Shown here in pieces: positions 5,658-56,157 of a stretch of DNA of 64,000 nt. Source of the stretch: Anseongella ginsenosidimutans. Its GTDB lineage: Bacteria; Bacteroidota; Bacteroidia; Sphingobacteriales; Sphingobacteriaceae. The notes under the pieces were generated by a model. It saw only the letters and a list, made by a program, of their open reading frames with translations. It had not been told where the DNA came from and did not search any database. Made by a program: the position numbers and the translations under genes. Positions within the stretch are counted from its first letter, which is position 1, and the number at the start of each line of letters is the position of its first letter. The stretch covers positions 186,001 to 250,000 of the forward strand of contig NZ_CP042432.1 of assembly GCF_008033235.1 (NCBI RefSeq), in the 5' to 3' direction.

Positions 5658-6779
5658 ATGAGGTTTATTGTTTCCACATCAGCTTTATTAAAACATCTGC
5701 AGGCCATTAGCGGCGCGCTGAGCAGTAATACCGTTTTACCCATTCTTGAAAACTTTTTATTCGAAATACATGATGGTTCGCTGAGGATCTCTGCTACCGA
5801 TTTGCAGACGTCCATGAGTACCAACCTGCAGGTGGAAGCCAGGGACAGCGGAAAGATCGCGATTCCCTCCCGTATCCTGATTGATACGCTTAAAACCCTC
5901 CCGGAGCAGCCGGTCACCTTTACCATTAATAATGAAACCCACGCCATCGAGATCAGCGCCGGCGAAGGCAAGTACAAACTGGCCGGTGAAGACGGGGATG
6001 ACTTTCCGAAAATTCCCGTTATTGAGAATGCTTCCTCCATCAGCCTGCCTGCCGACGTACTGACCAACGCGATCACCAAAACATTGTTCGCCGTTTCCAA
6101 TGACGAATTACGGCCGAACATGACCGGTGTTTACTGCCAGATGGCCGGCGGAGAAATCATTTTTGTAGCTACCGACGCCCATAAGCTGGTTCGTTACACA
6201 AGAAAGGATGTATCTTCAGAAGCGGCTTCTTCTTTTATTATCCCGAAAAAAGCGCTTACCCTGCTTAAAAACACGCTCCCGGATGATGATTCTACCGTGA
6301 GCATTGACTACAACGCGAGCAATGCCTTTTTCCGGTTCGGGCAGCTTCACCTGATCTGCCGGCTGATAGACGAAAAATATCCGGATTATGAAGCGGTGAT
6401 CCCCGCCAATAATCCCAACAAACTCACCCTTGACCGCAGCCAGTTCCTCAACTGCCTGAAACGGGTGGTGATCTATTCGAATAAAACCACGCACCAGGTG
6501 CGGCTTAAAATATCGGGAAGCGAACTAAGCATTTCCTCGGAAGATCCTGATTTCGCGAACGAGGCTTACGAACGGCTGACCTGCCAGTACGAAGGCGAAG
6601 ACATGGAAATAGGCTTCAACGCCAGGTTCCTGATAGATATGCTGGCTACGCTTGATTCGGATGAAGTCGTGGTGGAAATGTCCACCCCTAACCGCGCCGG
6701 CCTGATCATTCCTACTAACCAGGATGAACAGGAAGATATCCTGATGCTGGTGATGCCGGTGATGCTGAATAATTATTAG
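5658..6779 (+). CDS. dnaN: DNA polymerase III beta subunit (sliding clamp)
   Basis: Ring-forming clamp that tethers the replicative polymerase to DNA. It has 373 residues, the usual length, with three clamp-fold domains. The N-terminus MRFIVSTSALLKHLQAISGAL, the middle segment ELRPNMTGVYCQ and the C-terminal QDEQEDILMLVMPVMLNNY match the family, the last carrying the hydrophobic-cleft partner residues. It is not next to dnaA here, which is common in Bacteroidota. The 540 bases after its stop contain no gene and are full of palindromic repeats. Confidence 0.97.
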   Translation: MRFIVSTSALLKHLQAISGALSSNTVLPILENFLFEIHDGSLRISATDLQTSMSTNLQVEARDSGKIAIPSRILIDTLKTLPEQPVTFTINNETHAIEISAGEGKYKLAGEDGDDFPKIPVIENASSISLPADVLTNAITKTLFAVSNDELRPNMTGVYCQMAGGEIIFVATDAHKLVRYTRKDVSSEAASSFIIPKKALTLLKNTLPDDDSTVSIDYNASNAFFRFGQLHLICRLIDEKYPDYEAVIPANNPNKLTLDRSQFLNCLKRVVIYSNKTTHQVRLKISGSELSISSEDPDFANEAYERLTCQYEGEDMEIGFNARFLIDMLATLDSDEVVVEMSTPNRAGLIIPTNQDEQEDILMLVMPVMLNNY

Positions 6780-6817: not shown

Positions 6818-6938
6818 CGCGCGACGCGGATTTTGCTGCGCCCGCGCGCGACGCGGATTTTGCTGCACCCGGACTCGCTCAGGTGATTCTCCGTGCCGGA
6901 GAATCAACATCGCTCGCTCGGGCACAGCAAAATTCCGC
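6818..6938. repeat. imperfect palindromic repeat, copy A
   Basis: The inverted repeat at 6853-6938 has arms of about 41 bases around a four-base loop. The left arm reads GCGGATTTTGCTGCACCC and the right arm ends GGGCACAGCAAAATTCCGC. It is preceded by an extra tandem copy of the outer left-arm segment (CGCGACGCGGATTTTGCTGC at 6820 and again at 6847). The same element occurs in the opposite orientation at 7126-7212 and again at 55398-55507. Its place right after dnaN means it could also act as a transcription terminator or mRNA end stabiliser. Confidence 0.8.
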
Positions 6939-7125
6939 TGGCCAACGCACGACAATGTCACTCTTCACTAGGACTGATAACAGCAACACCTTGATAGTTA
7001 TACAACAATACTTGCGGGGAGTGAGGCTGAAGGTTTTGAAATGCCAGGGCGAGCGATTTTTGATTTTTAGGGCGGGCGCGTGCAGCGAGCAAATTTGATT
7101 GTTTTTTGTGCGGGAGGGGGCCGCA

Positions 7126-7264
7126 AAATTTTGCTGTGCCCGAGCGAGCGATGTTGATTCTTGCGGCCGCCCGCAAGAATCGTTTGAGCGAGTCCGGATA
7201 CAGCAAAATTTCAGAGGCCTGCGGGCAGGAATCGCCTGGCCGAGTCCGGGTACAGCAAAATTCC
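7126..7264. repeat. imperfect palindromic repeat, copy B plus a half copy
   Basis: The inverted repeat at 7126-7212 has arms starting AAATTTTGCTGT and ending ACAGCAAAATTT. The tip TTGCGG/CCGCAA surrounds a four-base loop. Both arms hold GAGCGAG in the same orientation, so the hairpin has an internal loop there. A half copy follows at 7218-7264, ending CGAGTCCGGGTACAGCAAAA. Weaker fragments of the left arm (GCGAGCGATTTTTGATTT and GCAGCGAGCAAATTTGATT) lie at 7049-7100. Nothing protein-coding is apparent between 6780 and 7318. Confidence 0.8.
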
Positions 7265-7318
7265 ACAGGCCTGCGCGCAAAGGCCTGGCAACCTTAGTAA
7301 CACCTGGTATTAAAATCG

Positions 7319-8041
7319 ATGAATACTTACGAGGAACAAGCATTACGGCAGCTGGGGAAATGGCAGGCGGATATGCAGGCGCATCCTTCGTTCACCAGCA
7401 AGGTATCGGGAAATATCCAGGGCCGTATCAACCGGGCCATTCCGGAGAAAGTCCATGAAGTGATCACTACATCTATCAGGCAGATGACCCGGGCGGTATT
7501 TTACGGGGCGGGCTTTGCCAATCCTAAACCGCTCAAAAATGCATCCCTTCGTGTGAGGGAGCATCGCGTACAAGGCAGGATCCGGTTTTACCGGAACGCG
7601 GCAACCGCCGAAGGCGCGCTGACCGGCGCGGGCGGTATCCTGCTGGGCCTGGCCGATTTTCCGCTGTGGCTCGCGCTTAAAATGAAGCTTTTGTTTGAGA
7701 TTTCGGCTTTGTATGGCTTCGATGTGAGCGACTACCGGGAAAGGTTGTACATGCTTCATATCTTCCAGCTTACCTTTTCCAACCAGCAGCAGCGCAACAA
7801 GGTATATGCTACCCTCGCCGACTGGGAGGGCTACCTGCAAAGCCTGCCGCAGGATATCAACGCCTTTGACTGGCGCAGCTTTCAGCAGGACTACCGCGAT
7901 TATATTGACATTGCCAAGCTTATCCAGCTGATCCCGGGAATAGGCGCAGTGGCCGGCGCTTATGTAAATCACCGGCTTACGGAGAAGCTGGGCGACTATG
8001 CCATGAACGCTTACCGCCTTCGGCTTATTCCGAAACAATAA
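7319..8041 (+). CDS. EcsC family protein
   Basis: 240-residue protein of the EcsC family, named after a Bacillus subtilis gene next to an ABC transporter; the biochemical role is not known. The family core is visible: a Gly/Ala-rich, partly hydrophobic helix TGAGGILLGLADFPLWLALKMKLLFEISALYGFDV (about residues 101-135) and a second one, LIQLIPGIGAVAGAYVNH (about 200-217). These are thought to associate with membranes. It starts directly after the repeat-rich region and is followed by the aromatic amino acid hydroxylase after 50 bases on the same strand. No functional link to it is evident. Confidence 0.85.
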   Translation: MNTYEEQALRQLGKWQADMQAHPSFTSKVSGNIQGRINRAIPEKVHEVITTSIRQMTRAVFYGAGFANPKPLKNASLRVREHRVQGRIRFYRNAATAEGALTGAGGILLGLADFPLWLALKMKLLFEISALYGFDVSDYRERLYMLHIFQLTFSNQQQRNKVYATLADWEGYLQSLPQDINAFDWRSFQQDYRDYIDIAKLIQLIPGIGAVAGAYVNHRLTEKLGDYAMNAYRLRLIPKQ

Positions 8042-54695: not shown

Positions 54696-55364
54696 ATGAT
54701 ATTGAAGATGAAGAGATTTTTAATCCCTGCTGTTTTATCGCTTGTAATGTTTTCCGCCTGTCAGCCGGGCCCGAAGCAAAATCATTCCCAGTCCATTGAC
54801 AGTCTTCTGGACGATACGGTAACAAGCGAAGAAGGCCGGCAGATTAAAGAAGAGAAATCAGGTTCCGCAAAGGTGTCCTTCGAAAAATCCTATACGGCGC
54901 CCAATGGTATCCAATTCAATATTACTACACTGGGAGATGATTCGCTGAGGCAAATGCAGATCATTGCCGTCAGGGACGGAATCTTTCTTACAGATATCAT
55001 GGAAGAGATCGTAGGGGAACTTATTATCGTTCGCATTACCGATCTGAACGACAATGACAATCCTGAACTCCTGATATTCACCGAAACGCGGGATGATCAC
55101 GAATACTGGCATTTCTATGCCTATGAGTTCTCTGATAAGGACTGGAATAAGATATATTTTCCTGAGCTAAGCGAGGAAGCCCTCCGCGGGTACCGGGGAG
55201 AAGACGTTTACCGGTTGATAGGCCGTGACATGCTGAGAAGGACGTTTCCTGTTTTCCTGGAAAAAGACAGCACCAAATCCAGCGGCGGAAAACGGGTAAT
55301 AGAATACATGCTCAACGAAAAGGGCGAAATGTATATAGATACGATACTGGTTAATAAAAAGTAG
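54696..55364 (+). CDS. lipoprotein of unknown function
   Basis: 222 residues with a signal peptide ending at MFSAC (a second ATG four codons in is an equally good start). The mature part has a polar spacer and then a mixed alpha/beta domain: FEKSYTAPNGIQFNITTLGDDSLRQMQIIAV, then ITDLNDNDNPELLIFTETRDDHEYWHFYAYEF. The Asp/Asn-rich DLNDNDNPELLIF loop looks like an EF-hand-like calcium site. No family was recognised. It converges with sodC across a region containing a palindromic repeat. Confidence 0.8.
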   Translation: MILKMKRFLIPAVLSLVMFSACQPGPKQNHSQSIDSLLDDTVTSEEGRQIKEEKSGSAKVSFEKSYTAPNGIQFNITTLGDDSLRQMQIIAVRDGIFLTDIMEEIVGELIIVRITDLNDNDNPELLIFTETRDDHEYWHFYAYEFSDKDWNKIYFPELSEEALRGYRGEDVYRLIGRDMLRRTFPVFLEKDSTKSSGGKRVIEYMLNEKGEMYIDTILVNKK

Positions 55365-55397
55365 CAGGTATCCAGATTCGAAGGAGCGGGCCGGCCA

Positions 55398-55507
55398 GCG
55401 GAATTTTGCGTTGACCGCAGCGAGCGAATTTTGATTCTCAGGCGAATACGGAAGCATTCGGGATTCCAAAAATCAGCACAAGCGAGTCCGGATAACGCAA
55501 AATCCGC
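55398..55507. repeat. imperfect palindromic repeat, copy D
   Basis: The outer arms GCGGAATTTTGCGTT (from 55398) and AACGCAAAATCCGC (to about 55507) pair. Inside, the left arm has GCAGCGAGCGAATTTTGATTCT and the right arm has GCGAGTCCGGATA. Order and orientation are the same as in copy B at 7126-7212, almost 50 kb away. A small inner stem CGAAT/ATTCG is at the tip. It lies between the convergent lipoprotein and sodC genes and could serve as their terminator. Confidence 0.78.
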
Positions 55508-55560
55508 GCCCGTTCGGCGGGGAACACTTCTCCGTAATACTTGATACCTGCTACTGGGTA

Positions 55561-56157
55561 CTATTGCATTTCTATGACTGCGCAGCCTTTTCTTCCGCCG
55601 GCATTGCCGCTGGGCTGGCTGTGAAAGTCATCGTGCATTTCATGAACGATAATGGCGTGGCCAACAATGTTCTTGGTAGTATCGGTACAATCCAGGCACC
55701 AAAGATCGGTTGTTAATTCCAGGGTACCTTTTCCGTCTTCGCCTACTTCTATATTACCGATATCCCCTCTGTGGAAAGGCGCTTCGCCCCATTTTCCATG
55801 ATCCTCATTAGTGGGATTCCAGTGGCCTCCCGCTGAGGAACCGTCTTCCGAGCTGCAATCGCCGTTCTCATGGATGTGAATAGCGTGTGTTCCGTTGCCC
55901 GGCGAGGTAATATCCGCCACCATTTTTATTTCTCCGTTTTCTTCCGTAAAGGTTACGGTTCCGCTGATCCCGTTTTCGCCGAGGGGGCTGATATTGGCTA
56001 CAGCGGTTTTAACCGCAGATTCAGTCGCCATTGGCTCTTCGGTAGCGGAGGTATCGCCGGATTCGCTTCCCGATTGTGAAGAAGGGTTGTTGCAGGCCGA
56101 AAAGGAAACGGCAAGCATAGCAGAAAATGCAAATAAAGAGAGAGAGTTAGCTTTCAT
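55561..56157 (-). CDS. sodC: Cu/Zn superoxide dismutase, lipoprotein form
   Basis: Removes superoxide outside the cytoplasm. 198 residues. The signal peptide ends at SFSAC, then a Ser/Thr/Glu spacer (about 22-50) and the SOD beta barrel. Copper ligands are in HAIHIHENGDC, the bridging and zinc histidines in GGHWNP and EDHGKWGEAPFHRGD, the last copper histidine in GHAIIVHEM, and the disulfide partner in GGRKGCAVIE. All expected metal ligands are present. It is probably outer-membrane anchored and is a single minus-strand gene. Confidence 0.95.
   Translation of the reverse strand: MKANSLSLFAFSAMLAVSFSACNNPSSQSGSESGDTSATEEPMATESAVKTAVANISPLGENGISGTVTFTEENGEIKMVADITSPGNGTHAIHIHENGDCSSEDGSSAGGHWNPTNEDHGKWGEAPFHRGDIGNIEVGEDGKGTLELTTDLWCLDCTDTTKNIVGHAIIVHEMHDDFHSQPSGNAGGRKGCAVIEMQ

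Follow-up and report, generated by a model that had tools for sequence, protein, structure and literature searches.

The elements in the window

The window, i.e. the whole 64,000-nt stretch of the Anseongella ginsenosidimutans genome that was analysed, carries dnaN for the DNA polymerase III beta clamp (5658..6779, plus strand; PF00712, PF02767 and PF02768) followed by an EcsC-family gene (7319..8041, plus strand; PF12787, E 4.9e-83), and the gap between them holds several related imperfect palindromes. Copy A (6855..6943; cmsearch 77.8 bits, E 3.5e-21) is a full element that sits 76 nt past the dnaN stop and faces the 3' end of this gene, with the strand bearing the proposed tandem G.A core described below (GA strand) on the minus strand. 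Copy B (7118..7211, plus strand; cmsearch 76.5 bits), upstream of the EcsC-family gene, is also a full element, with the inner stem GATTCTTGCGG/CCGCAAGAATC, and it is followed by a half copy (about 7217..7276, plus strand), a tandem duplicate of its 3' half comprising the core word and the outer arm (83% over 52 nt), which folds weakly (z -1.86). The same gap contains a remnant (7049..7081, plus strand) derived from the 5' half of a type 2 (long-type) element, matching at 97% the genome positions 1818479-1818511 within a full type-2 copy, and a 27-nt tandem duplication of the outer arm of A with its flank (6818..6871, plus strand; repeat 96%). Copies A and B have an arm of 44 nt in common, 91% complementary, and B produced BLAST matches elsewhere in its own genome down to E 2e-19.

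Copy D (55393..55505, plus strand; cmsearch 68.5 bits, E 2.8e-18) is a full type-2 element between two convergent genes: an upstream gene without Pfam match (54696..55364, plus strand) and a Cu/Zn superoxide dismutase gene (55561..56157, minus strand; PF00080), whose stop is faced by the 3' end of the GA strand of D. It is enclosed by an inverted repeat, the left arm of which (55360..55372, plus strand) takes in the stop codon of the left gene (TAG, 55362-55364) and pairs with the right arm at 55543..55555 (minus strand); the score of this repeat was 29, with all cross-locus controls lower, and a separate repeat search delimited the left arm to 55360-55375 at 94%. The single-strand folds had z = -3.5 for A, -5.3 for B (DNA fold z -5.26) and -2.2 for D. 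The initial annotation had listed A, B, the half copy and D and had taken A as inverted relative to B and D; all of them were present at the positions claimed, and the model strands (A minus, B and D plus) agreed with this orientation.

Size of the family

The genome consists of 4,322,684 bases in one contig and is 99.67% complete. Copies were collected, 26 of them were aligned, a structure was assigned and a first covariance model (R1) was built, which, at E <= 0.1, hit the genome in 48 places (best E 1.6e-27). Within the fetched stretches 46 matches had E <= 1e-7, including 45 in A. ginsenosidimutans and one in its congener, and the second model (R2) built from these 46 recovered, at E <= 0.01, 49 places in A. 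ginsenosidimutans and four in the single congener compared. The covariance-model search of the genome thus enlarged the few copies noted initially to a family of about 50, and their bias toward gene ends, described below, likewise departs from the picture of a few copies without positional preference. Chance similarity or base composition was ruled out as the source of the matches by the fold z-scores, the BLAST and model E-values and the shuffled and slid controls.

The listed hits numbered 51 after exclusion of two antisense model hits (L118 and L142). Positions and flanks were analysed for 42 of the 51, since two hits in the congener, two tandem duplicates and five partial, degenerate or fully palindromic hits (L137:4113, L130, L146, L123:4246 and L132:4116) were dropped, while 45 of 51 rows entered the flanking-repeat search, 43 of 46 the stem clustering and the collapsed mismatch count, and 44 of 53 the uncollapsed mismatch count. 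One locus (genome 1,847,650-1,848,289) harbors a tandem trio of near-identical elements with a spacing of about 272 nt, and beyond them a single copy in inverted orientation.

Architecture and covariation

The element is a hairpin of roughly 90-115 nt, consisting of an outer stem, a conserved core and an inner stem. Along the GA strand the order is a variable outer arm, CCG, CAGCGAGCGA, NNTT, the inner stem, GCCTGAGCGAG, NC, CGG and the complementary outer arm. The inner stem is either of type 1, starting with GATTC, or of type 2, starting with TGATTT and having an extra branch, and within each type the length range is narrow (in the model frame, type 1 elements measure about 89-96 nt and type 2 elements mostly 109-114 nt). 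Both stems vary among the copies yet stay paired, and the short core is fixed, with core words nearly invariant over 43 rows. All 23 of the 23 modelled pairs were altered on both sides in some copy. Standard pairs occupied 95.7% of the cells, compared to 69.8% in shuffled and at most 43.7% in slid controls, and the covariation score was 0.674 versus 0.195 after shuffling, albeit these values come from an alignment fitted to the structure and are biased in favor of pairing; when 26 copies were simply aligned with MAFFT, the corresponding values were 96.2% and 0.590 versus 74.5% and 0.177.

The outer arm initially described as shared by the copies, AATTTTGC, does exist, but it turned out to be merely one among the many outer-stem sequences of the family. 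The 43 rows fell into 21 outer-stem and six inner-stem clusters, one outer arm being found with several inner stems and vice versa (five outer clusters carry two to four inner types each), and the outer and inner distance matrices were barely correlated (Mantel r 0.075, with 95 of 2000 permutations as high). The outer and inner stems are therefore combined almost independently, for which the simplest reading is an exchange between copies at the core, by recombination or template switching. A weak match, L146:4033-4141, has CCTGAGCG words in mirror image on its two arms and comes close to a perfect palindrome, as though one of its halves were a copy of the other.

The proposed tandem G.A core

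The core words GCGAGCGA and GAGCGAG run in the same direction on both arms, from which it had been concluded that the hairpin must bulge. This is wrong if the register is right, as the words can stack as two tandem G.A/A.G steps: CGAGCGA placed antiparallel over GAGCGAG gives C-G, G.A, A.G, G-C, C-G, G.A, A.G, i.e. two tandem G.A steps with two Watson-Crick pairs between them. The closing pair (columns 30 and 110) was CG in 29 rows, UA in four, AU in three and GC in two, and unpaired in six, and a central pair of the core was changed from C-G to U-A in one copy. An element of the congener (L150) has, by eye, GTGAACG on both arms in the same direction, and this fits T-A, G.A, A.G, A-T, C-G, G.A. 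Judging from these sequences, the tandem G.A pairs probably form, albeit the folding programs used mostly left this region open. A kink-turn was considered and rejected, as its geometry, inspected by eye, does not appear to fit.

Position and orientation relative to genes

All 51 listed hits were located outside the genes predicted by a custom simple codon-usage gene finder. A stop codon was present within 110 nt of the 3' end of the GA strand in 31 of 42 copies and within the same distance of its 5' end in six of 42, the median distance to the nearest gene being 57.5 nt on the 3' side and 300.5 nt on the 5' side. In convergent gaps the nearer stop was at the 3' end of the GA strand in 21 of 22 cases (21:1, p 1e-5), while only 10 of the 17 elements in head-to-tail gaps pointed toward a stop, the rest lying mostly farther from the gene that they face, so that the orientation rule derives mostly from the convergent gaps. 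Convergent gaps also made up a larger share of the gaps with elements (16/35) than of the other gaps of at least 60 nt at the same loci (13/77). The GA strand is usually the template strand of the gene that it follows. Copy B is an exception to the gene-end facing, since its 3' end points at the start of the next gene. No replication-strand bias was observed (26/42, p 0.16), unlike what IS200/IS605-type movement might leave.

The interiors between the paired copies of inverted pairs such as A/B share no sequence across loci. By this comparison such pairs look like single elements, each beside its own gene end, and not like one unit, and the idea that two inverted hairpins and a shared interior form one composite was rejected, as the interiors were unrelated except inside one tandem array. 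The flanking genes examined (beta clamp, superoxide dismutase, glutamate synthase, tRNA isopentenyltransferase, PhoU and others) had no common function. Inspection of the printed contexts by eye revealed no regular T run after the stems, and at L136 the gene's own terminator-like hairpin precedes the element (by eye).

Flanking repeats and the matching sites of the congener

Some copies are enclosed by a further inverted repeat of 10-16 nt, located 0-21 nt outside the outer stem. The gene-side arm contains the stop codon of that gene at L133, L145, L148 and L140:6026, at copy D one arm contains the stop of the other gene, and at L119 the repeat starts 3 nt past the stop. Inverted flank repeats with a score of at least 22 were found in 5 of 42 copies versus 18 of 1700 cross-locus control pairs, and direct ones in none of the 42. 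A direct target duplication was also not seen at a score of at least 20 (0/42 versus 20/1700 controls), a search that very short duplications would escape. The flanking inverted repeats are possible insertion scars, and they could also have grown later by template switching.

In the congener, 11 of the 14 gene ends that were looked for had a match (71-83% identical), and in 10 of these cases there was a second match in synteny. None of the matched gaps contained an element, and the palindrome was also unseen there by eye; the R2 hits of the congener lie on other contigs. The dnaN-EcsC gap, which has 539 nt here, has about 57 nt in the congener (by eye). Such empty gaps suggest that most copies may have spread, or may have been lost, after the species split. 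At the 743 kb locus elements occupy the same gap in both species, and the family therefore seems to be older than this split.

In the congener, three tandem copies (G001:C1:96139-96457) immediately precede the start codon of a 141-aa gene and lie in a gap that holds elements in A. ginsenosidimutans as well. At L140:4063-6139 (genome about 3,283,560-3,285,640) two elements in inverted orientation enclose a segment of some 2 kb that the congener lacks; there, the ends of the flanking gene pair are separated by a few tens of bases. The segment contains a 459-aa frame with a lower coding score, by eye an amidohydrolase-like lipoprotein. A transposase carried between the paired copies at this 3.28 Mb site was therefore rejected, as the frame does not look like one.

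Pairing at the DNA or RNA level

In the stems read on the GA strand, 18 G.T and 19 A.C cells were present in 44 rows, and 13 G.T and 16 A.C when each outer cluster contributed a mismatch only once. If the fold were conserved in an RNA, that RNA would be expected to tolerate G.U on its own strand, and the equal frequency of G.T and A.C thus favors, with modest numbers, pairing maintained at the DNA rather than the RNA level. The GA strand was predicted to be the more stable one in 28 of 42 copies with DNA parameters and in 26 of 42 with RNA parameters, which is a weak preference. Rfam gave no match in the window at the gathering score and none in eight loci at E 0.5.

Distribution and search for a mobilising enzyme

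No convincing match beyond A. ginsenosidimutans and its congener was obtained with R1 over 399 family genomes, nor, outside the carriers, with R2 over 39 relatives or over 395 genomes of the class (among the class set the congener did not turn up); in these large model scans 9-10 candidates per genome were scored, so that diverged families could be missed. The exact two-word pattern was restricted in the 399 family genomes to the carriers plus lone hits in two others (G002 and G208), and a lone pattern hit in a Bradyrhizobiaceae MAG (L115) showed no paired stems by eye. A plasmid or phage origin was rejected, as copy B had no blastn match in either collection and the exact core was absent from viral contigs.

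The initial annotation had proposed to look for a REP-associated tyrosine transposase (RAYT). No PF01797 (Y1_Tnp) match was detected in A. ginsenosidimutans (99.67% complete) or the congener (92% complete), while 16 of the 24 other genomes of the same search possessed one and the E. coli control was positive; this Y1_Tnp search thus identified no mobilising enzyme in the carriers. The ends of the elements are paired without a shared sequence, and no autonomous partner was found among the part of the transposase families covered. A common GTAG, GTGG or CGTC tag was also absent: within 33-nt end zones of 42 copies, at most seven had any tag in one place and orientation.

Comparison with known repeat systems

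The REP/MITE-type reading proposed at first was retained for the dispersed extragenic palindromes, their fixed internal design and gene-end position, but neither the RAYT link nor the REP tag held. REPs are 20-40 bp long with a GTAG/GTGG or CGTC tag, GT pairing is cited for RNA roles, and CGTC repeats are reported from Bacteroidetes (PMC3733652, PMC2817692). The present elements resemble REPs and palindromic units in being extragenic imperfect palindromes, mostly downstream of genes, in convergent and unidirectional gaps and often in inverted pairs, and they are numerous, extragenic (51/51) and close to a stop (31/42). In contrast to REPs, they are about 90-115 nt long, lack the tag, have no conserved stem sequence (21 outer clusters in 43 rows) and no G.T excess. 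A RAYT-linked REP was rejected because of the missing Y1_Tnp in the carriers, the missing tag and a length two to three times that of a REP.

REPINs of Pseudomonas are described as a doublet of REPs arranged as inverted repeats, with a linked RAYT and thought to be moved in trans, and compensatory changes are common in their spacer hairpins (PMC3116915). By that description the likeness extends to dispersed, extragenic copies with two conserved words around a hairpin-forming spacer with compensatory changes, while here the words have the same direction and pair only via G.A mismatches, the outer arms are also compensated and a RAYT is absent. A REPIN unit of two inverted REP words with a spacer was not recovered, as the words run in the same direction and the interiors of (-)(+) pairs are unrelated between loci. 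Bacterial MITEs (ERIC, RPE, NEMIS, RUP) mostly have terminal inverted repeats with 5'-TA and target duplications (PMC2229807). MITEs so characterized, of about 100-200 bp, are similar in being mainly non-coding, intergenic long stem-loops without their own transposase, but the present elements have no direct duplication, their ends are not conserved in sequence and inverted gene-end repeats occur in a minority. By these comparisons the family lies outside REPs, REPINs and MITEs, because it differs from them in its tag, its enzyme, the conservation of its stems and the target duplication.

The attC site of integrons is a single-strand hairpin of 60-140 nt, in which structure is kept over sequence and which stands behind a stop codon in a fixed orientation. 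The elements share with it the single-strand hairpin kept by structure and the oriented position behind the stop codon, but not the conserved R boxes on the outer arms (as many as four types of Watson-Crick pair occur in the columns of the outer stem) nor a cassette array, as their copies are scattered over 4.3 Mb. No description of this hairpin design was found in the open-access literature.

Possible origin and maintenance

The best reading is a dispersed DNA hairpin family of new design, and we assign a probability of roughly 0.58 to lineage-specific, non-coding dispersed DNA hairpins that are REP/REPIN- or MITE-like in spreading in trans as a hairpin, yet stand outside the RAYT-linked REPs. 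In single-stranded DNA the GA strand would fold into a hairpin in which two stacked tandem G.A modules, and then a 4x4 loop, lie between the outer and the inner stem; a putative hairpin-recognising activity, or template switching in replication, would read the core rather than the stem sequence and place copies behind stop codons, and in some insertions an inverted copy of 10-16 nt of target sequence, at times with the stop codon in it, would remain on the opposite side. Copying is indicated by near-identical arms at distant loci and by the tandem array of three. Movement is deduced from one distant congener, as no between-strain difference could be shown, and its empty gaps may also reflect loss or drift instead of insertion here. 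A mobile hairpin recognised by shape alone, i.e. by the double tandem-G.A core with free stem sequences, inserted behind stops with the target end inverted and not direct, and following a pathway unlike that of RAYT/IS200, DDE or integron recombination, is a speculative extension and rather doubtful.

A domesticated gene-end element, kept for an action downstream of genes such as shielding of the mRNA 3' end against exonucleases or insulation of convergent genes by a cruciform or bound protein, is unlikely, although not negligible. The position behind stop codons (31/42) and the enrichment in convergent gaps (16/35 versus 13/77) suit it, the paired copies with unrelated interiors in convergent gaps each seem tied to their own gene, and core and pairing are conserved despite stem divergence; persistence in the same gap of both species at 743 kb fits retention for function too. 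However, the flanking genes examined lack a common function, the matching genes of the congener lack the element, and a neutral mobile element avoiding genes and promoters explains the position as well.

Two further explanations appear improbable. Tandem G.A pairs are common in RNA, and RNA motifs typically combine strong covariation with an internal loop that is conserved, so that a structured RNA motif in 3' untranslated regions that can be read from either strand, e.g. an RNA-binding-protein site or a ribozyme-like element, was considered; being behind genes, the copies are probably transcribed. There is, however, no G.U excess on either strand and no Rfam match in the searches described above, and the tandem-G.A core strand is usually antisense to the neighboring gene. 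Quasi-palindrome correction, i.e. hairpin template switching in replication, creates compensatory pairs in one step and strand-neutral mismatches, and could keep the pairing instead of selection, leaving the family as a passive relic. The mismatches are strand-neutral as observed, L146 is nearly perfect as if arm had been copied onto arm, and the tandem half copies and inverted gene-end copies are expected leftovers of slippage or template switching; but the core should then have turned symmetrical too, yet its words are nearly invariant (43 rows), and dispersal and position stay unexplained.

Small extragenic palindromes are usually accounted for by RAYT transposases and a shared stem sequence. 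Here, in contrast, the structure is conserved and the stem sequence is not, and RAYT, the usual enzyme, is absent from both carrier genomes. The copy number, the compensatory record and the modular mixing of stems make it testable whether the shape of a DNA hairpin is the unit of selection, and should the inverted repeats at gene ends be insertion scars, they would imply a different chemistry of insertion.

Other intergenic repeats near the elements

An intergenic minisatellite based on TTGCCTTCGCTTCGCTCGGCAGTTGAGGAGTTGAA is located between two elements in a convergent gap at L126:4205-4880 (genome about 1,817,700-1,818,380). T-rich repeats of the AGTTTAAAGTTT type recur in intergenic gaps near elements (L130, the right flank of L126, L127 and the flanks of L145) and perhaps represent a second repeat family.
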